A DNA stretch of 64,000 bases, taken from the NCBI GenBank assembly GCA_946885665.1, contig CAMPGT010000001.1, forward strand, positions 1-64,000, written 5' to 3'. The stretch is from an uncultured Chitinophagaceae bacterium. GTDB lineage: Bacteria > Bacteroidota > Bacteroidia > Chitinophagales > Chitinophagaceae. The notes under the pieces were generated by a model. It was not told the origin of the DNA and did not search any database. It saw only the letters and a list, made by a program, of their open reading frames with translations. Shown piece after piece: positions 1,828 through 61,259 of the stretch; position 1 is the stretch's first letter, and every line of letters starts with the position of its first letter. The position numbers and the translations under genes are program-made.

Positions 1828-1869
1828 GGGGCAATGGGCAATGGGCAATCGTGAGACGTGAGATTTCCC
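1828..1869. repeat. Heptamer tandem array, site 1 (3' of nadC)
   Basis: Begins at the base after the nadC stop. Units in strict 7-bp register: GGGGCAA, TGGGCAA, TGGGCAA, TCGTGAG, ACGTGAG, ATTTCCC. It leads straight into the 40-bp hairpin core. Confidence 0.85.
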
Positions 1870-1906
1870 CCGCTGGCGGGGGTGGTGCGAAGCGCCGGGG
1901 GTGGAC
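1867..1906 (+). repeat. 40-bp GC-rich hairpin core, copy 1
   Basis: One of three nearly identical 40-bp copies (others at 2312-2351 and 16825-16864, both inverted). Contains two potential hairpins: CCCCCGC with GCGGGGG around a TG loop, and a second around a GAA loop. It ends GGGGGTGGAC. Together with the inverted copy at 2312 it brackets the SUI1 gene. Confidence 0.85.
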
Positions 1907-1937
1907 CCAGCTTTAACTTTAATTCGTAATTTTTAAC

Positions 1938-2273
1938 GTGTCAAAGAAAAAAATATCAGCTAACGGCATCGTATATTCGACAGATCCTTCGTTCAGGCCC
2001 GCCGATGAAGCGCGCAGCCAGGAGGAAACGGTTGCGCCGGCAGCGCAGCCACTGAGACTCCGGCTCGACACGAAGCACCGGGGCGGAAAAACCGTGACGA
2101 TCGTCGAAGGATTTATCGGGAAAGACGACGACCTCGAAACGCTTGGCAAGCAGTTAAAAACCTTTTGCGGAACGGGTGGCAGTGTTAAGGATGGGCACAT
2201 AATCATCCAGGGCGATCATCGCCCGAAAGTGTTGCAGTGGTTGAAGAAGAACGGGTATGTGAAAGCGAAATGA
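1938..2273 (+). CDS. SUI1/eIF1-family translation initiation factor
   Basis: A 111-residue protein of the bacterial YciH/SUI1 family, homologous to eukaryotic eIF1, thought to act on start-codon fidelity at the ribosome. The N-terminal 50 residues are variable; the SUI1 domain follows (about residues 40-110) with KHRGGKTVTIVEGF, the CGTGGSVKDG loop and IIIQGDHRPKVLQWL, all typical. The start is GTG at 1938; no in-frame ATG fits. The gene stands alone, flanked on both sides by inverted copies of the 40-bp repeat core, which is unusual for a housekeeping gene. Confidence 0.92.
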   Translation: MSKKKISANGIVYSTDPSFRPADEARSQEETVAPAAQPLRLRLDTKHRGGKTVTIVEGFIGKDDDLETLGKQLKTFCGTGGSVKDGHIIIQGDHRPKVLQWLKKNGYVKAK

Positions 2274-2311
2274 ACCAGGTTAGAAATTTTTCTTGCTTTT
2301 TGATTGCCTTT

Positions 2312-2351
2312 GTCCACCCTCGGCGCTTCGCGCCACCCCGGCCAGCGGGGG
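2312..2351 (-). repeat. 40-bp GC-rich hairpin core, copy 2 (inverted)
   Basis: Reverse complement of the copy at 1867-1906 with three differences by eye. Followed by a small GCCC-TTC-GGGC hairpin (about 2360-2370) and a heptamer array. Confidence 0.85.
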
Positions 2352-2370
2352 AAACGGCTGCCCTTCGGGC

Positions 2371-2405
2371 AAAAGTTAAAAGATAAAAGTTAAAACTGAA
2401 AGCCG
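2371..2405. repeat. Heptamer tandem array, site 2 (between SUI1 and icd ends)
   Basis: Units AAAAGTT, AAAAGAT, AAAAGTT, AAAACTG, AAAGCCG in 7-bp register. A more degenerate T/C-rich stretch continues to the icd stop at 2445. The two flanking genes converge here. Confidence 0.75.
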
Positions 2406-2444
2406 TCTCGTTTCACCTTTGCCCTTTCCCTTTGCCATCTCCCC

Positions 2445-3986
2445 TCACTGCCCCTGCGCCAGGCTATACCCACGCTTGTCGCCCCACATATTCAGCAACT
2501 CGAGGCTCGCGATTTTAAAATCGCCGCTGAGGCTTACATACAAGCCGATAATATCCTGCTGGTTCAATGGCTCGCCATCGAGGCTTTCGAACCTGGCGTT
2601 GTACTGGTTCACCAGGTTGGTGAACCGGCTACCGGTTGGCCATACCTGCGTTCCCCTGTTGCTGATATTGATCAGCTTGAATTTCACACCTGCATGCCGC
2701 TCACATTTCTTCGCGATGTCGCTGGGCTGCATGTTGCTTTCGATAAACATGTCCACACCCACTATTTTCTCATTTTCGCCTTCCACACTTTCCATCATCG
2801 CATTTCTTTCGAGGTGGAGCACAGTGCAGGTGGTGGGAATATCCTCCAGATCCATTTTCGGATTGTGCGATGGTTTCTTTCCAAAGTTCGCAATCACCGC
2901 ATCGGCAAATCCCGTGGTGTTCACCGCCGGCTTCGACTTATCGCCAAAGTCGCCTGTGTGCACACCGTTCTCCAGCGTGTACAGCAATGCATTTTCTATC
3001 ATCACGGCGCTGTTGAGCAACCCGATATGCCTCAACATACCAAATCCGCTTAACAGCAATGCTGTTGGATTGGCAATATTCTTCCCGGCAATATCGGGGG
3101 CCGTGCCGTGCACCGCTTCGAATATCGAAATGTGATCGCCAATATTGGCTGAAGGTGCGAACCCCAATCCACCCACCAATCCTGCGCACAAATCACTCAC
3201 GATGTCGCCCTGCAGGTTGGTCAGCACCACCACATCGAAAGTGTCGGGCCGGGTCACCAGCTTCATGCAAAGGTCGTCCACGATAACATCGTCTGCCTTC
3301 AGTTCCGGGTAGCTTTTGGCCACCTCGTAAAAACATTCGAGGAACAGGCCGTCCGTTATCTTCATAATATTGGCCTTGTGACCGCAGGTGATGCGGCGCG
3401 CATTTTTCTGCTTCGCCATTTCGAATGCATATTTAATCACCTGCAGACTGCCCGGCCGCGTGATAAAGCGGCGGCTCAGCGCCACATCATGGGTGAGCAT
3501 ATGTTCGATGCCCCCGTACGTGTCTTCAATATTTTCCCTTACGATGGTGATATCGATCGGTATGCCCGCCTTACTGAAAACAGTATCAACGCCGTAAAGA
3601 GTTTGAAAGGTACGCTTGTTGGCATAGGTATTCCAGGTCTTTCTCGCGGTAACATTGATGCTTTTTACCCCCTTTCCTTTGGGTGTTTCCATCGGTCCTT
3701 TGAATAAAATACCCACGCTTTCGATGGTTTGAAGCGCCTCGGGCGTCATGCCATTATTAAAGCCCTTGTCGAACACCCACTTGCCCATGTCCACGAACTC
3801 ATATTTGAGCGGCACTTTCGCGGCATCAAAAATTTTGAGCACCGCATCCATTATTTCGGGACCGATGCCGTCACCCTTCGCAACGGCTATCGTGGTAACA
3901 GGTGTGTCCTTCTTTTGCTGCGTAGTTCCGCCTGATGCTTCAGTTGCAGGATGAAAATTGAACAGGCTCCGATTCATCAATATCAT
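2445..3986 (-). CDS. icd: NADP-dependent isocitrate dehydrogenase (Thermus-type, long form)
   Basis: TCA-cycle enzyme oxidising isocitrate to 2-oxoglutarate. 513 residues; the dehydrogenase core spans about 28-370 with AKGDGIGPEI near the start, the substrate-binding IVRENIEDTYGGIEH segment, GHKANIMKITDG, the DLQGD-like LTNLQGDIVSDL, and EAVHGTAPDIAGKNIANPTA. A C-terminal extension of roughly 140 residues (from about LEDIPTTCTV) matches the long Thermus-like subfamily rather than the E. coli form. Two in-frame ATGs exist (3986 and 3977); the first 25 residues are not conserved, so the start is uncertain by three codons. A near-match -7 sequence (TAATTTTA) lies upstream. Converges with SUI1 through a repeat array. 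Confidence 0.93.
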   Translation of the reverse strand: MILMNRSLFNFHPATEASGGTTQQKKDTPVTTIAVAKGDGIGPEIMDAVLKIFDAAKVPLKYEFVDMGKWVFDKGFNNGMTPEALQTIESVGILFKGPMETPKGKGVKSINVTARKTWNTYANKRTFQTLYGVDTVFSKAGIPIDITIVRENIEDTYGGIEHMLTHDVALSRRFITRPGSLQVIKYAFEMAKQKNARRITCGHKANIMKITDGLFLECFYEVAKSYPELKADDVIVDDLCMKLVTRPDTFDVVVLTNLQGDIVSDLCAGLVGGLGFAPSANIGDHISIFEAVHGTAPDIAGKNIANPTALLLSGFGMLRHIGLLNSAVMIENALLYTLENGVHTGDFGDKSKPAVNTTGFADAVIANFGKKPSHNPKMDLEDIPTTCTVLHLERNAMMESVEGENEKIVGVDMFIESNMQPSDIAKKCERHAGVKFKLINISNRGTQVWPTGSRFTNLVNQYNARFESLDGEPLNQQDIIGLYVSLSGDFKIASLELLNMWGDKRGYSLAQGQ

Positions 3987-4073
3987 TTTAACGTGTTTTA
4001 TCCGGTTAATTATCAGTGGTGGCGGTGGGTAAAATTAGCAAGCTTTTGATTACTTTTATGTCAAATCACCTGA

Positions 4074-4460
4074 ATGATATCGAAAATATCGGAAGGCATC
4101 GAGATTACTGTGGAGACATTTTATCAGCCGGATTACTCCAATCCTGTTTCAGGTGAATACATGTTCGCTTACAGAATTACCATCGAAAACCATAACAATT
4201 TTCCCGTTAAGCTTCACCGCCGCCATTGGTACATCATCGACAGTAACGGCACCACCCGCGAAGTGGAAGGAGAAGGCGTGGTGGGCGTGCAGCCCGTATT
4301 GCAGCCATCAGAAAAATACCAGTATGTGAGCGGCTGTAACCTGCGCACCGAATTTGGGAAGATGCATGGCACCTACACGATGGAAAACCTTAATAACAAA
4401 ACCACGTTCGAGGTGAACATCCCCATGTTCGAAATGATCGTGCCGTTTAAGATGAACTGA
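4074..4460 (+). CDS. apaG: ApaG family protein
   Basis: A 128-residue single-domain beta-sandwich protein of the ApaG family (DUF525), associated in enterobacteria with Co2+ resistance and Ap4A metabolism; the biochemical role is unresolved. Family hallmarks are clear: FAYRITIENHNNFPVKLHRRHW, then the GEGVVGVQPVLQPSEKYQYVSGC block and MHGTYTM. The start ATG at 4074 gives the usual family length. It is divergent from icd and converges with the OPT transporter gene, with a heptamer repeat pair in the gap. Confidence 0.95.
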   Translation: MISKISEGIEITVETFYQPDYSNPVSGEYMFAYRITIENHNNFPVKLHRRHWYIIDSNGTTREVEGEGVVGVQPVLQPSEKYQYVSGCNLRTEFGKMHGTYTMENLNNKTTFEVNIPMFEMIVPFKMN

Positions 4461-4475
4461 ATATTTCGGGGAAAT

Positions 4476-4604
4476 AAGTTAAAAGTTAAAACTTAAAAGT
4501 ATAAAGGGGACCCATTTCCATAAAAAGTTACTTGCAAAGGCCTTTCGCCGGCAACATTGCAAGCCTGAAGAAAGGGCTTTAACTTTTAAGTTTTAATCTT
4601 TCTT
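4476..4604. repeat. Paired heptamer arrays, site 3 (between apaG and OPT ends)
   Basis: Left arm 4476-4510: AAGTTAA, AAGTTAA, AACTTAA, AAGTATA, AAGGGGA. Right arm 4577-4604: CTTTAAC, TTTTAAG, TTTTAAT, CTTTCTT. The arms are largely reverse complements and could form a long stem around a loop that itself holds a CTTGCAA/TTGCAAG inverted repeat. The right arm includes the stop codon of the minus-strand OPT gene. It may work as a bidirectional terminator. Confidence 0.75.
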
Positions 4605-6644: not shown

Positions 6645-6650
6645 TATTTG

Positions 6651-8315: not shown

Positions 8316-8452
8316 GTAAAAGTTTTTGTGAGGTAAGCTATTAATGGCGTAAAGTAATGATAAATTCTATTTTGCCTGCCGCACGTCGAATTTTATTGGA
8401 GAATCCACCATGGAATCACGAAATTTGCCGCTTGTAAAATCCCCAACTCGAT

Positions 8453-9730: not shown

Positions 9731-9806
9731 AGAAAATCAAGGTTTCAGAGGGTTTAAAATAATAAAAGGAAGCATTTCTAGTTTATATTGAAAGTCATAG
9801 GTTTAC

Positions 9807-15795: not shown

Positions 15796-15836
15796 TTGGT
15801 CAAAATTCACTTTCTTTGCAGCACCAAAAAACACCC

Positions 15837-16796
15837 ATGTTAAAAGATATTCAGTCCACAGGCCAGAAAGACACCCGCAGCGGTTTTGGTGACGGCATTG
15901 TTGAAGCGGCAAGAAAAAATTCGAATATTGTTGCGCTGACGGCCGACCTCGCCGGATCCATGAAACTCAACCAGTTCATCAAGGAATTTCCGGAAAGATA
16001 TTTCCAGGTAGGTATTGCCGAAGCCAACATGATCGGCATTGCCGCCGGACTTACCATCGGTGGAAAAATTCCTTTCACCACCACCTTTGCCAACTTCTCA
16101 ACGGGCCGCGTGTACGACCAGATCCGGCAGTCTGTTGCGTATTCAGGAAAAAACGTAAAGATATGCGCCTCTCACGCCGGGGTCACCCTCGGGGAAGATG
16201 GCGCCACGCACCAGATTCTCGAAGATATCGGCATGATGAAAATGCTGCCGGGCATGACCGTGGTGGTGCCGTGCGATTATAACCAGACAAAACTCGCCAC
16301 CCTTGCAGTGGCCGATTACAAGGGGCCCGTTTACCTGCGTTTCGGCAGACCCAGTTGGCCGATTTTTACATCAGCAACCGAGCCATTCGTTATTGGGAAG
16401 GCGCAGAAATTTTCAGAAGGAAAAGATGTGTCCATTTTCGCTTGCGGCCACATGGTGTGGAAGGCGATAGAGGCAGGAAAGATTTTGGAAGAAAAGGGAA
16501 TACAGGCAGAAATCATCAACATACATACCATTAAGCCGCTCGATAGCGAAGCGATAATTGCCTCGATAAGAAAAACGAAATGTGCGGTTACTGTGGAGGA
16601 GCATAATATCCTCGGCGGTTTGGGCGATTCAGTGGCTCACGTGGCCGGCGCGTCTTTTCCCATACCTATCGAATACGTGGGTACGAAAGATACGTTTGGA
16701 GAAAGCGGCACGCCAAACCAACTCCTCGCGAAGTATGGACTCGACACACCTAACATTATTGATGCTGTGGAGAAGGTGATGGCGAGGAAAAGTTAA
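15837..16796 (+). CDS. Transketolase, C-terminal subunit
   Basis: Pyrimidine-binding and C-terminal domains of a split transketolase (pentose phosphate pathway). About 319 residues from the ATG at 15837; the TTG at 15816 is within a TTTCTTTG promoter-like sequence and is rejected. Visible: DLAGSMKLNQF, the cofactor-activating Glu in YFQVGIAEANMIGIAAGL, FANFSTGRVYDQIR, HAGVTLGEDGATHQ, and the C-terminal domain with TVEEHNILGGLGDSVAHV. The partner half, with the ThDP diphosphate motif, is at 47309-48139 on the other strand, about 30.5 kb away. The stop codon lies inside a heptamer array. Confidence 0.95.
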   Translation: MLKDIQSTGQKDTRSGFGDGIVEAARKNSNIVALTADLAGSMKLNQFIKEFPERYFQVGIAEANMIGIAAGLTIGGKIPFTTTFANFSTGRVYDQIRQSVAYSGKNVKICASHAGVTLGEDGATHQILEDIGMMKMLPGMTVVVPCDYNQTKLATLAVADYKGPVYLRFGRPSWPIFTSATEPFVIGKAQKFSEGKDVSIFACGHMVWKAIEAGKILEEKGIQAEIINIHTIKPLDSEAIIASIRKTKCAVTVEEHNILGGLGDSVAHVAGASFPIPIEYVGTKDTFGESGTPNQLLAKYGLDTPNIIDAVEKVMARKS

Positions 16797-16917
16797 AAGT
16801 TAAAACCATTGTCGATTGTCGATTGTCCACCCCCGGTGCTTCGCGCCACCCCCGCCAGCGGGGGATACTCTCCCGTTTGCCGTCTCCCGTCTCCCGTTTG
16901 CCTATTGCCTATTCACC
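16788..16917. repeat. Composite heptamer array with hairpin core, site 4
   Basis: Left array 16788-16829: AAAAGTT, AAAAGTT, AAAACCA, TTGTCGA, TTGTCGA, TTGTCCA. Core at 16825-16864. Right array 16869-16917: TCTCCCG, TTTGCCG, TCTCCCG, TCTCCCG, TTTGCCT, ATTGCCT, ATTCACC. It contains the stop codon of the transketolase gene at one end and that of the metallo-hydrolase at the other. Confidence 0.88.
16825..16864 (-). repeat. 40-bp GC-rich hairpin core, copy 3 (inverted)
   Basis: Reverse complement of the 1867-1906 core with two differences by eye. Lies between convergent gene ends, flanked by heptamer arrays on both sides. Confidence 0.85.
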
Positions 16918-17645
16918 ACTGCCGACTTGATATCATGATAAAATAAAAACGTCCAGTGCTCCCTGGTGCCCTGGTCCCACCATTGGCGACGAAGCTCCAT
17001 GCATTTTTTCCCGTCGTAATCGTATTTCGCCATGTAGCGGCTCTTCATCTGTCCGTATTGCGGCGCATCATCGCCACCAAAGAAAATTGTTTTTCCTTCG
17101 ACAACAATGCGGAACACCTGGTGGAATTTGCTGTGGGCCGACGTGAGCTCATAGTGGATGTAATTATCTATAGTGCCATTGCCGTTGAGCAGCTCTACCT
17201 GCGGTGAGCCATCAAGACAGTATAAATCTTCCTTAATATAAGAAGCTGTTGTGTCGGCGAGTGCAGAGGCGAGCTCCTGCTGCTGGATGTAGTATTTTGC
17301 CGACGGAAAACTCAGCTTTGTATTGCCCGCCTCATCTGTGCAGCAAACGCCGCCCGAATGATCCTTGTGCAGGTGGCTCATTAATACCTTTGTAACTTCT
17401 GATGGGTTGATGCCATTGTCCATCAGGTTTTGGTGTATCTGCAAAACATTCCTGTCGTTGGTAAAGCCGAGGCCGGCATCCAGCAACAGGATATCGTTGT
17501 CTGTGATGATCAGGAATGGCTGTACCTCAACGAGCAGGCTGCCTGTTGATCTTTCCCGGATGTCGTCTTTATTTTCATCGAAAGGAACAAAAACCTTTGT
17601 CTTATCTATCGTAAAGGAACCTTCGCTCAGCGGGATGATTTTCAT
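16902..17645 (-). CDS. Metallo-beta-lactamase-fold hydrolase
   Basis: A 247-residue cytosolic protein of the metallo-beta-lactamase superfamily. The zinc motif HxHxDH is present as His91, His93, Asp95, His96 in SHLHKDHSGG. LLDAGLGF precedes it as in lactonase-like members; the later His in TSAHSKFH and the FFGGDDAPQYG segment supply likely remaining ligands. The substrate cannot be named: related proteins include acyl-homoserine lactonases and other hydrolases. The last residues (VVNRQ) and the TAG stop are contributed by a heptamer repeat, suggesting the original C-terminus was altered. No signal peptide. Confidence 0.88.
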   Translation of the reverse strand: MKIIPLSEGSFTIDKTKVFVPFDENKDDIRERSTGSLLVEVQPFLIITDNDILLLDAGLGFTNDRNVLQIHQNLMDNGINPSEVTKVLMSHLHKDHSGGVCCTDEAGNTKLSFPSAKYYIQQQELASALADTTASYIKEDLYCLDGSPQVELLNGNGTIDNYIHYELTSAHSKFHQVFRIVVEGKTIFFGGDDAPQYGQMKSRYMAKYDYDGKKCMELRRQWWDQGTREHWTFLFYHDIKSAVVNRQ

Positions 17646-17671: not shown

Positions 17672-17769
17672 AAACGGGAGACGGCAAACGGCAAACGGGA
17701 GAGGAGAGAGGGTTTTCAGTTTTCAGTTTTAACTTTTAAGTTTTAACCGAAGGGCAATTGTCAATTCAA
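17672..17769. repeat. Heptamer tandem array, site 5 (14 units)
   Basis: Fourteen consecutive 7-bp frames, including AAACGGG, AGACGGC, AAACGGC, AAACGGG, then TTTCAGT twice, TTTAACT, TTTAAGT, TTTAACC, and finally AATTGTC, AATTCAA. The sequence class changes from G-rich to T-rich but the register does not. It reaches into the 3' end of galE, whose stop codon it contains. Confidence 0.85.
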
Positions 17770-18816
17770 ATCCACCGGCCGGCTCTGGAAAAATTTTTCG
17801 TCCACTTTTAAACGCTGCTCCCATTTCCATGCGGTGGACATCATATCGCCGAGCGAATACTTCGTCTGCCAGTTCAACTGCGTACGTGCGTAATCGTTAT
17901 TGGCATAGATCGCCACAACATCACCCGGGCGGCGCGGGCCGATCACATAATTCAGCTTCTGCCCGGTAACCTTTTCAAATGTCTTTATCGCCTCAAGAAC
18001 AGTGACCCCATTGCCCGTACCGAGATTGAACACCTCGCAGCGTTTGGATGTTTTGCCATCTACGAGGAACTGCACCGCCAGCGTGTGCGCATGCGCGATG
18101 TCGCACACATGTATAAAATCACGAACGCATGAGCCGTCTCTCGTTGGATAATCGTCGCCGAAAACCGTAACCTGCGGCAATTTACCGATGGCCGTTTGTG
18201 TGATGACAGGCACCAGGTTGGAAGGTTTGCCGATAGGCAGCTCACCGATCATTGCAGAAGGATGGGCGCCCACGGGGTTGAAATATCGCAGCAGGATGCT
18301 TTGTGAAGGATTTGCTTTCGAAAATTCGTTGATGATCTGTTCGCCCATCTGTTTGGTGTATCCATACGGCGACTCGGCAGGTTTGGGCGGCGTCGATTCG
18401 GTAACCGGTATCACGTCGGGGTTGCCGTAAACGGTGCACGAAGAAGAAAATACAAAATAGGGGATGTTGAACTCCTGCACGCATTTCAGCAGGTTGATCA
18501 GCGAAACCAGGTTGTTCTCGTAATACATCAACGGCTGTTCCACGGATTCACCTACCGCTTTATAGGCAGCGAAGTGGATGATCGCTTCGATATCTTCGTT
18601 CTCCTGGAAGATGGCGAAGGTGTCATCGAAATTGCAGAGATCAACCTTATAGTTCTTGATCTTTTTGCCCGTGATCTTTTCTATTCCTTCCAAAATTCTG
18701 GCGGATGACCTCGAATTGTTATCAACGGATATCACTTCGAATCCATTTTCGACCAGGTCAACAATGGTGTGCGAGCCAATATACCCACATCCGCCAGTAA
18801 CCAGAATTTTCTTCAT
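17761..18816 (-). CDS. galE: UDP-glucose 4-epimerase
   Basis: NAD-dependent short-chain dehydrogenase interconverting UDP-glucose and UDP-galactose, for the Leloir pathway and surface polysaccharide. 351 residues. The Rossmann motif VTGGCGYIGSHT opens the protein; FAAYKAVGESV, the catalytic Ser in FSSSCTVYG and the YxxxK pair in SPYGYTKQMGE follow; RYFNPVGAHPS and GSCVRDFIHVCDIA are GalE-specific. Upstream of it on the same strand is rmlA (36-bp gap), so both may be in one sugar-nucleotide operon. The stop lies in a heptamer array. Confidence 0.97.
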   Translation of the reverse strand: MKKILVTGGCGYIGSHTIVDLVENGFEVISVDNNSRSSARILEGIEKITGKKIKNYKVDLCNFDDTFAIFQENEDIEAIIHFAAYKAVGESVEQPLMYYENNLVSLINLLKCVQEFNIPYFVFSSSCTVYGNPDVIPVTESTPPKPAESPYGYTKQMGEQIINEFSKANPSQSILLRYFNPVGAHPSAMIGELPIGKPSNLVPVITQTAIGKLPQVTVFGDDYPTRDGSCVRDFIHVCDIAHAHTLAVQFLVDGKTSKRCEVFNLGTGNGVTVLEAIKTFEKVTGQKLNYVIGPRRPGDVVAIYANNDYARTQLNWQTKYSLGDMMSTAWKWEQRLKVDEKFFQSRPVDLN

Positions 18817-40113: not shown

Positions 40114-40230
40114 AAGTTGAAACTTAAAACTTAAAAGTGAAAAGTGAAAGGCATGCGATGCTTGATTTGAATGATGCGCTGGCATGAAATTTCAAGTTTA
40201 AGTTTTAACTTTTGACTTTTAACTTATTTT
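40112..40230. repeat. Heptamer tandem array, site 6 (about 17 frames)
   Basis: Left part AGAAGTT, GAAACTT, AAAACTT, AAAAGTG, AAAAGTG, AAAGGCA; right part ATTTCAA, GTTTAAG, TTTTAAC, TTTTGAC, TTTTAAC, TTATTTT. The outer parts are roughly reverse complements and keep one 7-bp register across a degenerate middle. It begins in the stop codon of the upstream gene and ends 2 bp before the next ATG. Confidence 0.8.
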
Positions 40231-45296: not shown

Positions 45297-45301
45297 AAAA
45301 A

Positions 45302-45336
45302 AGTTAATAGTTAAAAGTTAAAACTTAAAAGTGGAG
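45302..45336. repeat. Heptamer tandem array, site 7 (5' of ispG)
   Basis: Units AGTTAAT, AGTTAAA, AGTTAAA, ACTTAAA, AGTGGAG. The last unit contains the GTG start codon of ispG, so the array forms the translation initiation region. Confidence 0.8.
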
Positions 45337-47307
45337 ATCATCAGCGATATATCACGGTTACAAACACTTGAGGTGAAAGTGGGCGACCTGTTGCTGGGCA
45401 ACCTGCATCCGGTGCGCGTGCAAACAATGACCACCACCGACACGATGGACACACTCGCGACGATCGACCAGTCGATACGCTGCATCGAAGCCGGCGCAGA
45501 ACTGGTGCGCATCACCGCACCCAGCAAGAAAGAAGCCGAGAATCTGCTCAACATCAGGAACGGCTTGCACGAAAGAGGTTACCACACGCCGCTGGTTGCA
45601 GACATACACTTTACGCCCAATGCTGCAGAAATTGCTGCACGCATTGTCGAAAAAGTTCGTGTGAATCCCGGCAACTATGTGGACCGTAAAAAATTCGAGT
45701 TCATCGAATATACCGACAGGGCATACCACGAGGAAATTGAAAGGATCAGGGACAGATTTACGCCGTTGGTAAAAATCTGCAAAGAATACGGCACCGCCAT
45801 GCGCATAGGCACCAATCACGGTTCATTAAGCGACCGTATCATGAGCCGTTATGGCGACACCGCAATGGGCATGGTGGAAAGCGCGATGGAGTTTCTTCGC
45901 ATTTCACGAGACGAGAATTACCACAACATTGTACTGAGCATGAAATCGAGCAATCCGCTCGTAATGGTACAAGCCTACCGGCTCCTTGTTCAAACCATGC
46001 AAAACGAGTTCGGTGTTGTTTATCCGCTTCATCTCGGTGTAACAGAAGCCGGCGATGGTGAAGACGGCCGTATCAAATCTGCCATCGGCATCGGCACGCT
46101 GATGGAAGACGGTATCGGTGACACGATACGAGTATCGTTGACGGAAGATCCGGAATTCGAAATTCCGGTGTGCAAAGACCTGGTAAAAAGATATGCCAAC
46201 CGTTCGTTCGATCACGCGCAGCCGCAGAAAGATGTGCTGCTGCCACTGCCGTATTCTCCTTTCGAATACCAAAGAAGATCAACGCACAATGTGTCGAATA
46301 TCGGCGGCCGGCACGTGCCGGTTGTCGTTGCCGATTATTCGCAAACCGGACCGCTAAGTGTACACGATCTGAAATCGGCGGGCTATACCTACGATGAAGC
46401 CACGGATAAATGGACGATCCGCGACGCGGCGGCGGATTACATTTACACGGCCGATCAGTTGCCCGCCTTCGCTCTTCCCGGTTCCCTGCAGGTACTGTGC
46501 AATTATGATACATGGATCAAAGCCACTGATAAACAAAAATTCCATCCGTTGGTACCTGCAGCATCATATATTCAGATGCATTCTTCGGTGACTGATGTTT
46601 GCTTTGTACAGGTGGATGCTCATGAGAAGAAAATCGCATCTCCCTTGCGAAACATCATTCGCGACAAAAACAACGTTGTGCTGTGTTTACATTCTTCGGC
46701 CGCTGTTCCTATGCCTTCTGCAAGGGATTTCCTGGTTGAATTGATGAAGGAGAAAATAAAGACGCCCGTCATCCTGGTGGTGGAAAGCAGCGATGCGACG
46801 ATCGATGAACAGCTTATCCACTTTTCGGCTGAAGCGGGCGCGTTGCTCCTGGATGGGATGGGCGATGGTGTGTGGCTGAAGAATGATCCGTCACGACTGT
46901 CGAACCGGAAGATTAGCGGCCGCACCTATCTCGAAGCGAAGGATAACCGGCAGTTTATCAACAACACCTCTTTTTCGATATTGCAGGCAACGCGTACGCG
47001 CATCAGCAAAACCGAATATATCTCGTGCCCATCGTGTGGCCGAACGTTGTTCGACTTGCAGGAAACGACTGCAAAGATCCGCGCCGTTACGCATCATCTC
47101 AAAGGAGTGAAGATTGCGATCATGGGATGTATCGTAAATGGTCCGGGAGAAATGGCTGATGCAGATTTCGGCTATGTTGGCAGTGGGCCGGGCAAGATCA
47201 CCCTCTATAAAGGCAAGGAGGTGGTGAAACGGTCGGTCAACAGCGATATTGCCGTGGAAGAGCTGGTTACCCTGCTCAAGGAAAATGGCGCCTGGGTGGA
47301 ACCGTGA
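45331..47307 (+). CDS. ispG: 4-hydroxy-3-methylbut-2-enyl diphosphate synthase, three-domain form
   Basis: MEP isoprenoid pathway enzyme with a 4Fe-4S cluster. 658 residues, the large form found in Bacteroidota, Chlamydiae and plants: a TIM barrel (about 10-290; VRVQTMTTTDTMDT, VADIHFTPNAA, RIGTNHGSLSDRI), an inserted domain (about 300-545), and the C-terminal cluster domain. The cluster ligands are Cys566 and Cys569 (CPSCGRTLFDLQ) and Cys600 (MGCIVNGPGEMADADFGYVG). The start is GTG 45331, in the last unit of a heptamer array; no upstream in-frame start exists before a stop. It converges with the transketolase half, 1 bp apart. Confidence 0.95.
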   Translation: MEIISDISRLQTLEVKVGDLLLGNLHPVRVQTMTTTDTMDTLATIDQSIRCIEAGAELVRITAPSKKEAENLLNIRNGLHERGYHTPLVADIHFTPNAAEIAARIVEKVRVNPGNYVDRKKFEFIEYTDRAYHEEIERIRDRFTPLVKICKEYGTAMRIGTNHGSLSDRIMSRYGDTAMGMVESAMEFLRISRDENYHNIVLSMKSSNPLVMVQAYRLLVQTMQNEFGVVYPLHLGVTEAGDGEDGRIKSAIGIGTLMEDGIGDTIRVSLTEDPEFEIPVCKDLVKRYANRSFDHAQPQKDVLLPLPYSPFEYQRRSTHNVSNIGGRHVPVVVADYSQTGPLSVHDLKSAGYTYDEATDKWTIRDAAADYIYTADQLPAFALPGSLQVLCNYDTWIKATDKQKFHPLVPAASYIQMHSSVTDVCFVQVDAHEKKIASPLRNIIRDKNNVVLCLHSSAAVPMPSARDFLVELMKEKIKTPVILVVESSDATIDEQLIHFSAEAGALLLDGMGDGVWLKNDPSRLSNRKISGRTYLEAKDNRQFINNTSFSILQATRTRISKTEYISCPSCGRTLFDLQETTAKIRAVTHHLKGVKIAIMGCIVNGPGEMADADFGYVGSGPGKITLYKGKEVVKRSVNSDIAVEELVTLLKENGAWVEP

Positions 47308-52292: not shown

Positions 52293-54227
52293 TCATCCCA
52301 GCAAATTATTCACATAAATCACATCCTTCATCATTTCCCTGACGGTGGAGGCAATGCCTTCGGCATCAAAACCACATTCTTTCTGTAATTCTTTTACTGA
52401 GCCGTGTTCAACGATCCTGTCGGGAATTCCGAGCATCTTCACCTGGGCCGAATAGTTATGCGCCGCCATGAACTCAAGCACCGCGGATCCAAAGCCACCG
52501 AGAATGGTTCCGTCTTCAACGGTCAGTATTTTCGGATACTTGCTAAACACCTCGTGCAACAACGCTTCGTCGAGCGGTTTTGCAAAGCGCATGTCGTAAT
52601 GGCCCGGATCGATGCCTTCCGTTCTTAACTGCCGTATGGCCGTTGCCGCAAAATTTCCCGGGTGCCCAAAGCTGAGAATGGCGATATCCCTTCCATCTTT
52701 CAGCTTTCGTCCCTTGCCAACAGGTATCTCCTGCAAAGGCGTTCTCCATTCCGGCGTAACACCTTCTCCGCGAGGGTAGCGAATCACCATCGGATTTACC
52801 GTTGTATCGAGCTGCGCTGTATACATCAGGTTGCGCAACTCCGATTCGTTCATCGGTGCACTCACGATCATATTCGGAATGCAGCGCATGTACGCAATGT
52901 CATAGGCTCCATGATGCGTTGGTCCGTCTTCGCCCACCAATCCTGCCCTGTCGAGACAGAAAATGACTGGCAGGTTTTGTATGGCCACGTCATGCACCGC
53001 CTGGTCGTACGAGCGCTGCATGAACGACGAGTAAATATTACAAAACACTTTCATCCCCTGCGTGGCCATCCCTGCGCTCAGCGTTACCGCATGCTGCTCG
53101 CAGATCCCCACATCGAATGCCCTGTCCGGCATCTTTTCCATCATAAATTTAAGTGAGGATCCTGATGGCATCGCCGGTGTTATTCCGAAAATCCTGTCGT
53201 TTTTTTCGGCCAGTTCTATGATGGTTTGACCAAATACATCCTGGTATTTTGGCGGTTGCGGAAGCTCATACTTTTTCTTATAAATTTCACCGGTAATCTT
53301 ATCGAACAAACCCGGCGCGTGCCAAACGGTTTGATCTTTTTCGGCGAGTGCGTACCCCTTTCCCTTGACGGTAATGATATGCAGGAGCTTGGGACCGGGA
53401 ATGTCTCTAAGATCCTTCAGCGTGTCCACCAGCTTCGTGATATTATGGCCGTCTATCGGTCCAAAATACCTCAGTTTGAGCGATTCGAAAAGATTACTGC
53501 TTTTGTTGATGAATCCTTTGATGCTGTGTTCCACCTTCGATGCCATCTCGCGCGTAAAATTCGCTCCGAGGGGCAGCTTGCCCAGCGCCTTCCACACGTC
53601 GTCTTTCACCTTGTTGTAGGTGGGGGAGGTGGTAATGTCTGTAAGATATTCTTTTAGGGCACCTACGTTTGGATCGATGCTCATGCAGTTGTCGTTCAAA
53701 ATGATGAGCATGTCTGTGTCGGCCACCCCCGCGTGGTTCATTGCCTCGAAAGCCTGGCCGGCGGTGAGGGCGCCGTCGCCGATGATGGCCACCGATTTGC
53801 GGTTTTCCTTTTTATATTTTGCCGCCATCGCCATGCCCAGTGCCGCCGAAATGGAAGTGGAGGAATGGCCCACGCCGAACGTATCAAATTCGCTTTCGGT
53901 TCTCTTGGGAAAGCCGCTTAGTCCGCCGTATTTACGATTGGTGAGGAACGAGTCGCGCCTGCCGGTAAGTATTTTATGCCCGTAGGCCTGGTGGCCCACG
54001 TCCCAAACGAGCTGGTCGTAGGGAGTGTTGTAGATGTAATGCAGGGCAACGGTGAGTTCGATGACGCCGAGGGTGGCCGCAAAGTGGCCGCCATGCACGC
54101 TCACCACATCAATGATGTATTGCCGCAGTTCATCTGCCACCGATTGCAACCGGTCACGATCAAGGTTTCTGAGATCTTCGGGCGAATTGATCTGCTGGAG
54201 CAATGGACCGGACGTGATTTCCATCAT
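52293..54227 (-). CDS. dxs: 1-deoxy-D-xylulose-5-phosphate synthase
   Basis: First enzyme of the MEP isoprenoid pathway, from pyruvate and glyceraldehyde-3-phosphate. 644 residues, full length. N-terminal domain with HGGHFAATLGVIELTVALHYI, WDVGHQAYGHKILTGRRD, GVGHSSTSISAALGMA, and the ThDP motif GDGALTAGQAFEAMNHAG ending LNDN; middle domain with the catalytic Glu in FDVGICEQHAVTLSAGMA and GPTHHGAYDIAYMR; C-terminal GFGSAVLEF. Start is one of two adjacent ATGs (54227, 54224). Shares the pathway with ispG, 5 kb away, but is transcribed separately. Confidence 0.98.
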   Translation of the reverse strand: MMEITSGPLLQQINSPEDLRNLDRDRLQSVADELRQYIIDVVSVHGGHFAATLGVIELTVALHYIYNTPYDQLVWDVGHQAYGHKILTGRRDSFLTNRKYGGLSGFPKRTESEFDTFGVGHSSTSISAALGMAMAAKYKKENRKSVAIIGDGALTAGQAFEAMNHAGVADTDMLIILNDNCMSIDPNVGALKEYLTDITTSPTYNKVKDDVWKALGKLPLGANFTREMASKVEHSIKGFINKSSNLFESLKLRYFGPIDGHNITKLVDTLKDLRDIPGPKLLHIITVKGKGYALAEKDQTVWHAPGLFDKITGEIYKKKYELPQPPKYQDVFGQTIIELAEKNDRIFGITPAMPSGSSLKFMMEKMPDRAFDVGICEQHAVTLSAGMATQGMKVFCNIYSSFMQRSYDQAVHDVAIQNLPVIFCLDRAGLVGEDGPTHHGAYDIAYMRCIPNMIVSAPMNESELRNLMYTAQLDTTVNPMVIRYPRGEGVTPEWRTPLQEIPVGKGRKLKDGRDIAILSFGHPGNFAATAIRQLRTEGIDPGHYDMRFAKPLDEALLHEVFSKYPKILTVEDGTILGGFGSAVLEFMAAHNYSAQVKMLGIPDRIVEHGSVKELQKECGFDAEGIASTVREMMKDVIYVNNLLG

Positions 54228-54241
54228 GATGCTTTAAACGG

Positions 54242-54249
54242 CAAATTTA
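54242..54249 (-). promoter_or_regulatory. -7 promoter element of dxs
   Basis: TAAATTTG on the minus strand, exact TAnnTTTG match, 14 bp upstream of the dxs start. Confidence 0.6.
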
Positions 54250-54269
54250 CTTGAAAAGTGTGGGAAAAA

Positions 54270-54310
54270 GACGGGAGACGGGAGACGGAAGACGGAAGAC
54301 GGGGGTGGAC
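54270..54310. repeat. Heptamer tandem array with truncated core, site 8
   Basis: Units GACGGGA, GACGGGA, GACGGAA, GACGGAA, GACGGGG at 54270-54304. Its end runs into GGGGGTGGAC (54301-54310), identical to the last 10 bp of the 40-bp core, whose first 30 bp are missing. It lies between two divergent promoters (dxs and the histidine kinase), so not at a gene end. Confidence 0.82.
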
Positions 54311-54322
54311 TACCACTTATCC

Positions 54323-54330
54323 TATTTTTG
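54323..54330 (+). promoter_or_regulatory. -7 promoter element of the LytS-like kinase gene
   Basis: TATTTTTG, exact TAnnTTTG match, 40 bp upstream of the ATG at 54371. Confidence 0.5.
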
Positions 54331-54370
54331 CCCAAAAAGCAACGCAAAAAAGTACATTTGAAACAGGTTA

Positions 54371-55414
54371 ATGAGCTTTTTGCAAAAAATATCATACTAC
54401 TGGTGGTGCCAAATCGCGGGGTGGGGAATAGTGGCGCTTTCCTTCCTGTTCTTTGCCGGTTCATTCGGACAGGGCATCACGCGGGAGTACCTCCTGAAAA
54501 TCATTATCATCGTGGTTTGCGGCATCTTCAGCACACACATGCTCCGCTTGTTCATGCTGGCCAAAAACTGGCTGTTGCTTCCCATAGAAAAACTGCTCAT
54601 CCGCCTTTGCGCCGCTGTCATTGTGACGCTGATCTTCAACGGACTGCTGGTAATAGTAATGGATCAATTGGCCGGCATCGATGCAAACCGCCGCAACCTC
54701 GATTTCATTACGCGGCTCATCGGTAACATGATCGACAGCGGTATCTGGATCATCCCCTGGGTTTTGCTGTATTATTTCTACCACTACTACATGAAGAGCC
54801 GCCGCCAGCAACTCGACACCCTCAAACTCGAGGCCCTCGTAAAAGAACTGGAGCTGAAAACCATAAAGGCCCACATCAACCCGCATTTTATTTTCAATTC
54901 ACTCAACAGCATCCGCGCACTGATCGATGAAAACCCCGGCAGGGCCCGCAATGCCGTTACCAACCTGAGCAACATCCTGCGCAGCAGCATGCAGGCCGAA
55001 AAAACAGAAACCGTTGCGCTTGAAAGGGAATTGAATATTGTGAAAGATTACCTGGCGCTTGAATATATCCGGTTCGAGGACCGGCTCAAAATTGAATACA
55101 ACATCGATATTGAAACGCTGAACCAGCCGGTGCCGCCGATGATGTTGCAAACGCTCGTGGAAAATGCCATCAAGCACGGTATCGGCAAACAGATCAACGG
55201 CGGGATAGTTAAAGTGACATCTGATTTCAATAACGATTACCATGAACTGATCGTTCAGAATTCGGGCCGCCTGAACGGTAGTATAAACGACAATGGATTT
55301 GGGTTATCGAGCACCCGCAACCGCCTTTATCTTTTGTTTGGCGACAAAGCAAAATTTGACATCGCACAGGTGGGCGAACTTGTTGTGGCCCGGGTGCTGA
55401 TTCCCAAATCATAA
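54371..55414 (+). CDS. Sensor histidine kinase, LytS/YehU family
   Basis: A 347-residue membrane kinase. Four or so helices in the first 140 residues (about 12-35, 42-62, 75-100, 120-140), a short coiled linker, then the His_kinase domain: HINPHFIFNSLNSIRALI (phosphoacceptor probably His172), and the ATPase part with PPMMLQTLVENAIKHGI and a GFGLSSTRNRL motif. No extracellular sensor domain is visible, so the signal is unknown. Paired with the LytTR regulator 32 bp downstream. Such pairs are common in Bacteroidota and usually regulate neighbouring or surface genes. Confidence 0.93.
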   Translation: MSFLQKISYYWWCQIAGWGIVALSFLFFAGSFGQGITREYLLKIIIIVVCGIFSTHMLRLFMLAKNWLLLPIEKLLIRLCAAVIVTLIFNGLLVIVMDQLAGIDANRRNLDFITRLIGNMIDSGIWIIPWVLLYYFYHYYMKSRRQQLDTLKLEALVKELELKTIKAHINPHFIFNSLNSIRALIDENPGRARNAVTNLSNILRSSMQAEKTETVALERELNIVKDYLALEYIRFEDRLKIEYNIDIETLNQPVPPMMLQTLVENAIKHGIGKQINGGIVKVTSDFNNDYHELIVQNSGRLNGSINDNGFGLSSTRNRLYLLFGDKAKFDIAQVGELVVARVLIPKS

Positions 55415-55446
55415 CATCTTCGATACGGAAATTAAAAAACAAACGG

Positions 55447-56178: not shown

Positions 56179-56190
56179 GCGGAACCTTAC

Positions 56191-57000
56191 TCATGATTTG
56201 ACCGCGTAAATCATTATATCGCTGCCGGGATTTTTTGGGAAAAGTATTTTTGACGTTGCCCGGTAACGGTGCCGCTTCAACAATGCAATGAATTGCTCAA
56301 GCCGATCCGCACCGTGCATGCTTCGGTGAAACTCGATAATAAATTGCCGGATCTTTCCTGACTGCAACGTTTCATGATGCTCGAGATCCGAAAGAATGTC
56401 TATTTCAGCTCCTTCCACATCTATTTTTACCAGCTCGATATTTTCAAAACGCTGCAAAAATCCGGACAACCTGGTGGCGCGTACTTCCTCGGTTAGTGCG
56501 TTGCGGTTCGTTGCTTCAAGAGAAGCATTGATGACAGAATCCGCCACATGCAGAGTCATCGCGCGGTCAACGTTCGACAAAGCGTTTTCATGAATGAATA
56601 CATTGTTCAGTTTGTTTTCTTCTATATTTCTTCGGAGAAAATAGAGTGCTTTGCTGTATGGTTCAAAACAATGAATAACTGCATCGGGAAACAATGATCT
56701 GAAGTATAACGCGGATATGCCGATGTTCGCACCGCAGTCAATAATGACGGGCGATTTTATTGATGCTGCGAAATGGTACTCCTGGTCCACAAATTTCTCT
56801 TTGATCAGTTGGCTGGCGACGGCATGGGCGGGGGCATGAATGATGAATCGTCCGAGCCGGACATGCACGCTGCCCGTTTTCTTTCCGAATCTTTTGGACA
56901 ATGCAAGAGTAACCAGCGCACGCAACAAGGCAAAGCGCGACACCGCAGGGTTTCTTTTGAAGGCGGCGACTAAAAATGGTTTGATGAGTGTAAAAAGCAT
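56191..57000 (-). CDS. FkbM family methyltransferase
   Basis: A 269-residue SAM-dependent methyltransferase from the ATG at 57000 (a TTG at 57015 is possible). The FkbM core has IIDCGANIGISALYFRSLFPDAVIHCFEPYSKAL (SAM-binding motif), a SNVDRAMTL segment and LVKIDVEGAEIDIL. FkbM proteins O-methylate sugars, lipids or peptides; the substrate here is not predictable. It is 21 bp downstream of the GH9 gene and may be co-transcribed. Confidence 0.88.
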   Translation of the reverse strand: MLFTLIKPFLVAAFKRNPAVSRFALLRALVTLALSKRFGKKTGSVHVRLGRFIIHAPAHAVASQLIKEKFVDQEYHFAASIKSPVIIDCGANIGISALYFRSLFPDAVIHCFEPYSKALYFLRRNIEENKLNNVFIHENALSNVDRAMTLHVADSVINASLEATNRNALTEEVRATRLSGFLQRFENIELVKIDVEGAEIDILSDLEHHETLQSGKIRQFIIEFHRSMHGADRLEQFIALLKRHRYRATSKILFPKNPGSDIMIYAVKS

Positions 57001-57021
57001 TTGCGTGCGCTTCAATGCTTG

Positions 57022-58791: not shown

Positions 58792-58801
58792 AAAAAAGAA
58801 A

Positions 58802-60100
58802 TTAAAATTTATGCATCACCTTGTCCATTTCCTGCACGATATTTTCATTATGCAAATTACCGATACTGCCTTCGTGCGTGTGCTTCAGCCCTTTTGAAAA
58901 ATCGAATGAGAAGTTCCCCTTTTCAATTTGATCACCCACTGTTTTATATGCTTCGCGAAAAGGAACGCCTTTGTTCACGAGTTCGTTCACCGCCTCGACG
59001 CTGAAAATGTATTTATACTTCTCGTCTTTCAGTATATCTTTTCTAAAGCTGATATTCGAGATCATCAATTTCGTCATGTGCAAACAGGAAGTTAGTTCAG
59101 TAAACACAGGAAACAAAATTTCTTTGGTGAGCTGCAGGTCGCGGTGATAACCCGATGGAAGATTGTTCACGAGCAGTGTCAGTTCATTGGGGACCGACTG
59201 AATCCGGTTGCAATGCGCGCGCACCAGTTCGAACACATCGGGGTTCTTTTTATGCGGCATAATGCTGCTGCCCGTTGTAAGTTCGGAAGGGAAATAAATG
59301 AAGTTGAAGTTCTGGTTAAGGTACAGGCAGCAATCCATGGCAAGCTTTCCGAGCGTTGCGGCTATCGAAGCAAGTGCCTGTGCAACGATCTTTTCCGTTT
59401 TGCCCCTGCTCATCTGCGCATACACGGAATTGTGGTTTATCGTTCCGAAATGCAGCAATTCGGTGGTGAGCGTTCGGTTAAGAGGAAATGACGATCCGTA
59501 ACCGGCGCCACTGCCCAGTGGATTTTTATTGGCGATGGCATAGGCGGCGGATAAAAGTTCCGCATCATCCACAAGGCTTTCGGCATATGCGCCGAGCCAG
59601 AGTCCCGCAGACGAAGGCATGGCGATTTGCAAATGCGTATACCCGGGAATAAGGATGTCCCTGTGTTTCTCGCTTTGTGCGATGAGCAGATCGAACAGGC
59701 TTCTTACTTCCTCTTTTATTTTTAAGATTTCGGCGCGCAGAAACAATTTGATATCAACCGCTACCTGGTCGTTCCTGCTCCTCCCGCTGTGTATTTTTTT
59801 GCCGGCGTCTCCGATTCTCTCTGTAAGCATCAGCTCTACCTGTGAGTGGATGTCTTCTACCCCTTCGTCTATTTTAAAGTTGCCAGCTTTTATTTCGTTT
59901 AGGATAACGCGCAATCCTGCCAACGCTTTTTCTGCCTCGTCTTTTTCCATCAGCCCCGTTTGCTGCAGCATCGTCACGTGCGCGATGGTGCCGGTAACAT
60001 CATGTTCCGCCAGTTGCAGGTCAAATTCATTGTCGCGGCCAACCGTGAATGTTTCGATCTGTTGCGAGGTGCTTGTATTTTCTTTGCTCCAGAGTTTCAT
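58802..60100 (-). CDS. argH: Argininosuccinate lyase
   Basis: Final step of arginine synthesis: argininosuccinate to arginine and fumarate. 432 residues from the ATG at 60100 (a TTG at 60103 adjoins). Conserved: DIHSQVELMLTERIGDAGKKIHSGRSRNDQVAVD (active-site region), PGYTHLQIAMPSSAGLWLGAY, the GS flexible loop in TTGSSIMPHKKNPDVFEL, and the C-terminal helices. Follows argE by 10 bp in the arg operon, last gene of the run. Confidence 0.97.
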   Translation of the reverse strand: MKLWSKENTSTSQQIETFTVGRDNEFDLQLAEHDVTGTIAHVTMLQQTGLMEKDEAEKALAGLRVILNEIKAGNFKIDEGVEDIHSQVELMLTERIGDAGKKIHSGRSRNDQVAVDIKLFLRAEILKIKEEVRSLFDLLIAQSEKHRDILIPGYTHLQIAMPSSAGLWLGAYAESLVDDAELLSAAYAIANKNPLGSGAGYGSSFPLNRTLTTELLHFGTINHNSVYAQMSRGKTEKIVAQALASIAATLGKLAMDCCLYLNQNFNFIYFPSELTTGSSIMPHKKNPDVFELVRAHCNRIQSVPNELTLLVNNLPSGYHRDLQLTKEILFPVFTELTSCLHMTKLMISNISFRKDILKDEKYKYIFSVEAVNELVNKGVPFREAYKTVGDQIEKGNFSFDFSKGLKHTHEGSIGNLHNENIVQEMDKVMHKF

Positions 60101-60110
60101 CAAACTTTTT

Positions 60111-61178
60111 TTAATATAGGATATTTTTCAGCAGGTTGATGTAAATATCAATGCCTTCTTTGATTTCTTCTGTATAAATAAATTCATCGGCCGTGTGGCT
60201 CCTGGCCGAGTCGCCGGGCCCCATTTTCAATGCCGGGAAAGGCATCAGCGCTTTGTCGGACGTGGTTGGCGAGCCGTAGTAAGTTCTTCCGAGTTTGATG
60301 CCCGATTGCACAACGGGATGACTAACGGGTATCAGCGACGACCGCATTCTCATGCTTCTGGGTTTCACTTCGGCGGTTACATTCTTCTTTATTTCAGCAA
60401 GCAATTCGTCAAAGGTGTACAATTCATTGACCCTGATGTCGGCAACAAAAGCGCATTGCGGCGGCACAACGTTGTGGGCCTTGTTATCGGTATGTATAAC
60501 GGTCACCGACATTTTTACCGGACCCAAAAGTTCGGATACTTTTGGAAACTGGAAACTGCGGAACCAGTCGATATCTTTCATTGCTTTGTAAATGGCATTC
60601 TCGCCTTCGTTACGCGCCGCGTGCCCCGCTTTCCCGGTAGCCGTACAATCCAATACCAGCAGTCCTTTCTCTGCTATTGCCATTTGCATTTGCGTGGGTT
60701 CGCCTACGATGGCAAAGAAAATGTTGCCGAGGGAGGGCAGCAGTTTTTCGATGCCGTTGTGGCCCGATATTTCTTCCTCGGCTGTAGCGGCAAGCGCAAT
60801 ATTATACTGAAGCGAGGGCTCATTATAAAAGTGAAGAAACGTTGCCATAAGGCTTACCAGCGGGCCGCCCGCGTCGTTGCTGCCGAGGCCGAACAGCTTA
60901 CCGTGTTTTTCGATCGGGGAGAAAGGATCATGGGTGTATCCCTGGTTGGGCTTTACCGTGTCGTGATGCGAGTTAAGGAGAATCGTGGGCCTTGACGCGT
61001 CAAAGAATTTGTTGAATGCGAATACGTTGTTGGCGATCCGGGAATGTTCGATGCCCCGCTCGCCCAGGAAACGGGCGATGGCGCCCGCCGTCTGGTCTTC
61101 CTCCCTGCTGAATGAGGGGATGGAGATCAGCTCTTTGAGCAGGCCAAGCGCTTCGTTATAGGTATTTGTTGCGTTCAT
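60111..61178 (-). CDS. argE: M20 family deacylase (N-acyl-ornithine/citrulline deacetylase)
   Basis: A 355-residue dizinc peptidase-family hydrolase from the ATG at 61178. Motifs: SHHDTVKPNQG (first zinc His/Asp), LGSNDAGGPLVSL (bridging Asp), ALAATAEEEISGHNGIEKLL (catalytic Glu pair), VGEPTQMQMAIAEKG, and GPGDSARSHTADEFI near the C-terminus. With a carbamoyltransferase of the succinylornithine type next door, the natural substrate is probably N-succinyl- or N-acetylcitrulline rather than acetylornithine. Upstream sequence up to the argB stop is a heptamer array. Confidence 0.9.
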   Translation of the reverse strand: MNATNTYNEALGLLKELISIPSFSREEDQTAGAIARFLGERGIEHSRIANNVFAFNKFFDASRPTILLNSHHDTVKPNQGYTHDPFSPIEKHGKLFGLGSNDAGGPLVSLMATFLHFYNEPSLQYNIALAATAEEEISGHNGIEKLLPSLGNIFFAIVGEPTQMQMAIAEKGLLVLDCTATGKAGHAARNEGENAIYKAMKDIDWFRSFQFPKVSELLGPVKMSVTVIHTDNKAHNVVPPQCAFVADIRVNELYTFDELLAEIKKNVTAEVKPRSMRMRSSLIPVSHPVVQSGIKLGRTYYGSPTTSDKALMPFPALKMGPGDSARSHTADEFIYTEEIKEGIDIYINLLKNILY

Positions 61179-61196
61179 TTTTTTGGGATTGGTTAT

Positions 61197-61259
61197 ACGG
61201 CAGTCGGCAATGGGCAATGTAATTAGGTTGCCGGTTGCTGTTTGCCGTTTGCCGGCTCT
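61197..61259. repeat. Heptamer tandem array, site 9 (overlaps argB 3' end)
   Basis: Frames ACGGCAG, TCGGCAA, TGGGCAA, TGTAATT, AGGTTGC, CGGTTGC, TGTTTGC, CGTTTGC, CGGCTCT. The second half is the coding sequence of the last dozen residues of argB; the stop codon is in the middle of the array. Confidence 0.85.

Follow-up and report, generated by a model that had tools for sequence, protein, structure and literature searches.

Arrays of tandem heptamers between bacterial genes are already known, namely the GGGAATC repeats of Xanthomonas, their counterparts in Nostoc and the TAACTGA repeats. The STRR (short tandemly repeated repetitive) sequences of heterocystous cyanobacteria are likewise tandem heptamers with several units. 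REP/BIME elements (repetitive extragenic palindromes and bacterial interspersed mosaic elements), which go together with RAYT (REP-associated tyrosine) transposases, are intergenic palindromes past stop codons, and in the fold-back elements of Drosophila a variable middle is enclosed by inverted arms made up of short tandem subrepeats. Here, we analyzed the first 64,000 nt of contig CAMPGT010000001.1 from an uncultured Chitinophagaceae bacterium, hereafter the window, in which arrays of degenerate heptamers lie between genes and three hairpins of fold-back form are seen.

The Xanthomonas heptamers were described by Rehm et al. (2015, PMC4692102), who report 70 and 75 inverted pairs in two genomes, in a 'convergent orientation' that we read as the same purine-first order as found here. 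These repeats are intergenic, occupy the sense strand close to stop codons or across them, are rare between divergent genes and mostly transcribed, and 83% of them are kept between two species. The same paper gives related GGGGA(C/T)T repeats for Nostoc PCC 7120, with few inverted pairs, and mentions three Calothrix heptamers. One G-rich unit type was studied per genome there, whereas many unrelated units were found here, several of them AT-rich and without G-runs. Retention also differs, as only 13 of 20 array spacers are common to two sister genomes of 96% identity in our data, and an orthologous spacer here carries different units. MacGregor (2015, PMC4679880) listed TAACTGA direct repeats for Beggiatoaceae, Cyanobacteria and five Bacteroidetes. 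Heptamers are mixed in some members of the latter two groups, and the indels between two close Cyanothece strains mostly follow 7-nt steps. Intergenic position, mixed heptamers and 7-nt length steps are thus common to those repeats and ours, but the TAACTGA repeats have one unit, and those of BOGUAY mostly precede start codons directly, a single case being inverted.

Neither unit was found in the window: tandem TAACTGA and GGGNATC are both lacking among its units, which are AAAAGTT, ACGGGAG, GGGCAAT and others, and Rfam at the gathering threshold gave no match in the window. The portions consulted of the heptamer-repeat literature (mainly PMC4692102 and PMC4679880) contain no many-word Chitinophagaceae vocabularies, no different words at one orthologous spacer, no rule of arm polarity that holds across words and no core inversion, and a search of the literature on Chitinophaga intergenic palindromic tandem repeats returned nothing relevant. 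Word replacement and core inversion are therefore best seen as detail added to a known sort of array. A preliminary description of the window had named the cyanobacterial STRR as its nearest parallel. The resemblance in period and in the use of several units stands, but the Xanthomonas and TAACTGA repeats are nearer, and the window's host is Chitinophagaceae-like, so that the arrays are not members of STRR. Our own cyanobacterial comparison is thin, 200 kb of one Trichormus plasmid having yielded 4 arrays (score ≥12).

Period-7 arrays and inverted pairs

Arrays were detected by a custom ungapped lag score, with thresholds from 8 to 16 depending on the analysis. The whole window holds 12 lag-7 segments of score ≥13, compared with 0 in each of 10 Markov shuffles, and at most one segment was found for every other lag from 2 to 24, multiples of 7 aside. 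When only the 33 spacers delimitable by a simple open reading frame (ORF) caller were considered, 12 arrays (score ≥10) were found versus a mean of 0.09 and a maximum of 1 in 300 shuffles, and lags 2 to 20 except 7 and 14 gave at most one array each. The nine places listed in the preliminary description all proved to hold period-7 arrays, and the signal was far above that of shuffled spacers. However, one of them, 17672-17769, had been taken for one array of 14 frames and is actually two adjacent arrays of unrelated units (17674-17711 and 17712-17746), while its last three supposed frames (17749-17769) show no repeat. The phase said to persist across a change of unit is uninformative, because a run of period 7 is periodic in each of its phases. 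Five further arrays had not been listed separately (4578-4601, 16808-16827, 16873-16913, 40197-40225 and 61226-61254). It had also been missed that the arrays of several relatives often face each other as inverted pairs with a core between them, i.e., as the arms of hairpins.

Relatives were sought through ispG (45331-47307), which is 58-74% identical to the best 80 of 573 confirmed relatives in genome contigs; these 80 family loci span 3-22 kb each. Nearly all carry Chitinophagaceae or Bacteroidetes labels, with Chitinophagaceae bacterium PMP191F and Niastella at the top, and two other labels (Williamsia, Beijerinckiaceae) are probably mislabelled bins. At least one array (score ≥13) was present in 22 of the 80 loci; the arrays are not universal. 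Further genomes of relatives were sampled as stretches. In 400 kb each, Chitinophaga japonensis (G011) had 41 lag-7 arrays (score ≥13), Flaviaesturariibacter aridisoli (G013) 32 and Niastella caeni (G003) 45, and one Markov shuffle of each sample contained none. The period-7 repeats suspected to be genome-wide do therefore recur across the sampled stretches of relatives and are almost absent from shuffled sequence. Octamer arrays, some in inverted pairs, were seen in the Niastella caeni loci L129-L148 (e.g., L140 8264-8465 and L137 6049-6181), one consisting of approximately 16 perfect AGTTATTC units. A run of about 30 AATTAAG units was noted at G064:C1:1925506-1925714, where 4-5 are usual.

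Neighbouring arrays no more than 220 bp apart were compared in the window, the 80 family loci and the stretches of eight genomes. Seventy-four neighbour pairs were inverted, 8 were direct and 32 had no common unit. Given as inverted/direct/none, the counts were 18/1/0 in G011, 13/1/1 in G040, 10/0/2 in G063, 9/1/0 in G013, 9/0/2 in G004, 1/0/0 in G064, 0/0/0 in G006, 8/1/3 in the 80 loci and 1/0/4 in the window. As G040 and G063 are sisters with elements common by descent, their pairs are not independent events. With cut-offs of 55/45% for purine polarity, 54 of the 74 inverted pairs were purine-first, 2 pyrimidine-first and 18 mixed; in Pinibacter soli alone, all nine were purine-first. The element is thus often laid out as a purine-rich array, a core and a pyrimidine-rich inverted array of the same unit. 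Folding at z < -2 was obtained for 78 of 89 whole elements and for 18 of 89 cores alone, a difference that is partly built in because the pairs had been selected as inverted. In the window, one of five neighbour pairs was recognized by rule, and three hairpin elements were identified by eye and by folding. These fold as single hairpins at 4476-4601 (z -2.2), 40114-40225 (z -2.5) and 61198-61254 (z -2.7), compared with z values of -1.1 or higher for the six other window stretches that were fold-tested.

Turnover, copies and placement in relatives

For the nuoM-nuoN spacer, 60 Chitinophaga genomes were considered and the 30 with the best scores compared. The spacer measures 23-30 bp in 19 of these 30, holds longer DNA without heptamers in 7 and heptamers in 4, with the word AAATTCC in G011, GTCCATG in the related G040, a TTTTACC run in G036 and, in G063, a decayed form resembling the GTCCATG element of G040. 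In L193 and others, the longer DNA without heptamers includes, for example, repeated GATTTGAGGATTTTC, and the spacer itself seems prone to insertion.

For the sisters G063 and G040, whose genes have a median identity of 96%, the comparison covered 94 spacers, 32 neighbour pairs having been left out for want of a match, length or adjacency. Arrays were absent from both in 74 spacers, present in both in 13 and in one sister only in 4 and 3. The alignments show gain or loss of whole heptamers, e.g., of 21 bp, and two elements are present in one sister only, so that the proposed comparison of orthologous spacers did reveal arrays gained or lost and lengths differing by whole heptamers. One core (sister spacer 54) is the reverse complement of its orthologue, with a local score of 49 inverted and 8 direct and a best of 17 in 200 shuffles, and its arms differ at the outer end alone. 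A second apparent inversion (spacer 50; score 15, shuffle maximum 14) was not counted. At larger distance, array presence coincides weakly: G011 and G063 share 5 of 103 spacers with arrays, with 10 and 14 in one only and 72 in neither, and for G011 and G040 the figures are 4 in both, 5 and 6 in one only and 33 in neither.

Cores were compared among 67 elements of G011, G040 and G063. A similarity score of at least 26 was reached by 28 of 2211 pairs versus 0 of 6633 shuffled ones, and 23 of the 28 links fell within one cluster of 14 AATTAAT-type elements (13 in G011, 1 in G063); six more AATTAAT elements of G011 lie outside it. The five remaining linked pairs include one locus fetched twice and one orthologue comparison. 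This cluster of dispersed, related copies argues that the AATTAAT family spread at least partly by copying. Outside this family, cores are mostly unrelated, including those whose arms have a word in common, and a 121-bp core occurs once in its genome and has no match in four relatives. Both copying and birth in place are thereby indicated.

The AATTAAN word was found in 8 of the 60 Chitinophaga genomes. The window word AAAAGTT, searched as an 18-mer with at most one mismatch, occurs at 10 places in the 64 kb and is matched in 64 of the 195 genomes of the family, with no more than 19 places in any one. The family thus knows the word, but no genome has it at the density of the window. The reversed control of the word reached up to about 600 places in one genome; this TTGAAAA-type word is very frequent in G083, G250, G004 and G127 (about 120 to 600 places). 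The vocabularies of the lineages overlap, but their weights differ greatly. Across the units of 72 arrays, 3.6 of 7 columns were invariant compared with 2.9 expected by random placing, for which shared unit descent could suffice.

With regards to placement, the window and five genomes, two of them sisters, were counted on mechanical ORF calls with unreliable starts. Arrays occurred in 35 of 191 spacers between convergent genes, in 101 of 750 between co-directional genes and in 12 of 199 between divergent genes, i.e., in 1.03, 0.88 and 0.25 spacers per kb, respectively. In 66 of 171 cases, the nearest array overlapped the stop codon or began no more than 5 bp from it, with approximately 28 expected by a rough formula for uniform placing. 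Arrays can also sit in coding sequence: the inter-domain linker of ispG holds an in-frame heptamer array in 4 of the 80 species, with four different words (Table 1). The same linker seems, as judged by eye, to carry other palindrome-like repeats in L002, L007, L008 and L044.

Layout of the window

The features are collected in Table 1. For the run at 2411-2443, the heptamers were read by eye, and Tandem Repeats Finder returned a period of 13. The three REP-like double hairpins combine a GGCGC-TTC-GCGCC type with a CCCCCGC-CA-GCGGGGG type, and each of their spacers also has heptamer arrays. The lactamase-fold gene is enclosed by compound arrays in mirror order (AAAAGTT...CTCCCGT, gene, ACGGGAG...TTTTAAC).

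Table 1. Repeat features of the window in order of position; the last line gives the coding arrays of relatives.
Feature	Position	Strand	Context
Array GGGCAAT x3, then CGTGAGA x2	1829..1863	+	Starts 1 bp past nadC stop (967-1827)
REP-like double hairpin, copy 1 of 3, imperfect	1867..1906	-	Adjoins array 1829..1863
REP-like double hairpin, copy 2 of 3	2312..2351	+	
Array AAAAGTT x4, degenerate	2371..2401	+	Between convergent SUI1/YciH-like and isocitrate dehydrogenase genes
Degenerate pyrimidine-rich run, CTTTGCC/CTTTCCC words	2411..2443	-	Beside end of gene 2445-3986
Left purine-rich fold-back arm AAGTTAA/AACTTAA	4476..4506	+	15 bp past stop of ApaG-domain gene
Right arm, inverted copy of AAGTTAA/AACTTAA unit, TTTAACTTTTAAG	4578..4601	-	Score 9.5, under pairing rule
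Array AAAAGTT x2.6	16788..16805	+	Overlaps stop codon of transketolase-like gene 15816-16796
Array ATTGTCG x3	16808..16827	+	
REP-like double hairpin, copy 3 of 3	16825..16864	+	
Pyrimidine-rich array TCTCCCG/TTTGCCG	16873..16913	-	Enters 3' end of lactamase-fold gene 16902-17645 (-)
Purine-rich array ACGGGAG/ACGGCAA	17674..17711	+	
Pyrimidine-rich array GTTTTCA/GTTTTAA	17712..17746	-	Abuts 17674..17711; 15 bp from galE 3' end (17761-18816, -)
Left fold-back arm AAACTTA/AAAAGTG	40114..40149	+	
Right arm, inverted, TTTAAGTTTTAACTTTTGAC	40197..40225	-	Partner of 40114..40149
Single array AAAAGTT	45299..45330	+	Fills spacer between TPR-protein gene (ORF end 45296) and ispG (ORF from 45331)
Single array AGACGGG x5	54269..54302	+	Divergent spacer between DXP-synthase (52293-54227, -) and histidine kinase (54371-55414, +) genes
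Left arm CGGCAAT/GGGCAAT of short hairpin element	61198..61219	+	
Right arm GGTTGCC/GTTTGCC	61226..61254	-	Overlaps 3' end of amino-acid-kinase gene (61223-62095, -)
In-frame ispG-linker arrays	L003 10858-10896; L019 10897-10922; L020 10868-10905; L073 10861-10912		

Origin and meaning of the elements

We consider the chances to be about even that small intergenic fold-back elements, produced by slippage, template switching and some copying, account for many of the arrays as their arms and perhaps for others as leftovers of arms. Arrays would lengthen and shorten by slippage in steps of 7 bp, and a replication template switch across inverted arms could generate the second arm and invert the core. 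Some elements may then spread as copies, and most, being neutral or selfish, would persist where they are least harmful, i.e., past stop codons and away from promoters. Template switching at inverted repeats homogenizes arms and can invert the spacer between them, as documented in PMC8604942, and this would account for mirrored arms and a flipped core. Slippage and template switching had been among the origins first proposed for the arrays, and both are favoured by these features and by the 7-bp length steps. The Drosophila fold-back elements follow a similar plan of arms and middle, but they are eukaryotic and far larger.

Several observations weigh against this explanation. In Niastella (G003), the neighbours were 5/4/20 (inverted/direct/none), and its 400-kb sample also holds 26 lag-8 arrays, so that the 7-bp period is not absolute. 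The share of arrays in a recognized inverted pair was 36 of 61 (59%) in G011, 18 of 34 (53%) in G004, 26 of 57 (46%) in G040, 20 of 50 (40%) in G063 and 18 of 49 (37%) in G013, down to 16 of 73 (22%) in the 80 loci, 10 of 84 (12%) in Niastella and 2 of 14 in the window, where two of the three pairs rest on eye and fold. The hairpin model thus suits Chitinophaga better than it does the window and the closest named relatives of the window, and in pairing the window resembles Niastella. The clear core inversion is a single case that misassembly may mimic, and empty sites do not distinguish gain from loss. For the AATTAAT arms of G011 (19 elements), similarity to the own partner was 0.912 versus 0.913 to other copies (permutation p 0.58), so that copying, and not homogenization, explains their likeness. 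Inspection of about 20 flanks by eye revealed no target-site duplication, and the transposase search was limited to Y1.

The low share of paired arrays takes weight from the hairpin elements and gives it to plain simple-sequence repeats, each array being born alone by slippage with a preferred 7-nt step. Most arrays of Niastella, of the 80 loci and of the window are unpaired, neighbours in Niastella and the window often have unrelated units, copy number varies by 7 bp, and heptamers rank first among the long simple repeats of most studied genomes (Mrazek 2007, as cited in PMC4679880). However, slippage on its own predicts neither the inverted order of arrays with the same unit (74 to 8) nor the purine-first order (54 to 2), and it gives no account of dispersed copies with related cores; we regard it as rather unlikely to be the whole explanation. 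Functional 3'-end elements under selection, be they terminators, mRNA-stabilizing hairpins or a binding platform, appear improbable. Sites just past stop codons, the small number in divergent spacers, the hairpin potential and the transcription and retention of the Xanthomonas repeats (PMC4692102) would all suit such a role, but tolerated insertions would show the same placement. Moreover, elements occur between nuoM and nuoN, where heptamers are lacking in 26 of 30 genomes, and this turnover within a nuo gene pair makes a conserved function unlikely, just as the different units at orthologous sites leave no conserved binding word. Intrinsic-terminator-like cores (GC-rich stem and T run) numbered just 3 of 101; although this exceeds the 0.15 of shuffled sequence, seeding of the arms by terminators was rejected as well.

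Mobilization of REP-type elements by RAYT/Y1 transposases is very improbable, even though the elements are palindromic, intergenic and past stop codons. Y1_Tnp (PF01797) had matches in 8 of 14 genomes overall, among them the array-rich G003 (2), G004 (3) and G013 (7), but none in the array-rich G007, G011, G012, G040 and G064, and, unlike in REP/BIME elements, the arms are tandem heptamers. The distinction from dispersed REP elements drawn in the preliminary description holds only in part, as three REP-like double hairpins share spacers with the arrays. A retro-type or telomerase-like templated addition of heptamers, also raised there, would suit a strict repeat length with a variable unit, but the many unrelated units per genome would need many templates, and the arms are mirror copies; although neither enzyme nor template was searched for, we found no support for it and hold it to be scarcely credible. 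Loss of mismatch repair was dismissed, as mutS1 was over the cut-off in all 21 genomes. Of 21 Chitinophagaceae genomes, only 5 had SbcD, a hairpin nuclease subunit, above the NCBIfam cut-off, namely 4 of 11 array-rich genomes versus 1 of 10 others, the array content of which was not generally measured, and this scarcity might bear on palindrome tolerance.

Taken with the fold-back explanation, the elements are most likely neutral or selfish. A broader and rather doubtful generalization would place them in one hairpin-element class of bacteria of several phyla, with arms in 7-nt steps, the purine-rich arm first whatever the word, and the word replaced whole, in both arms, within the lifetime of a genus. 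If true, replication-linked slippage and template switching would write and rewrite spacer hairpins, and these would not be a sequence-inherited family. The arrays bear on why heptamers are favoured long simple repeats in many bacteria, a preference reported by Mrazek (2007, as cited in PMC4679880). The elements may also mislead the prediction of promoters, terminators and small RNAs. Within genera of the Chitinophagaceae, one spacer may be empty in some genomes, hold one word in others and a different word in still others, and in such series the 7-nt step is open to a direct test and the birth, growth, flipping and loss of arrays can be traced.

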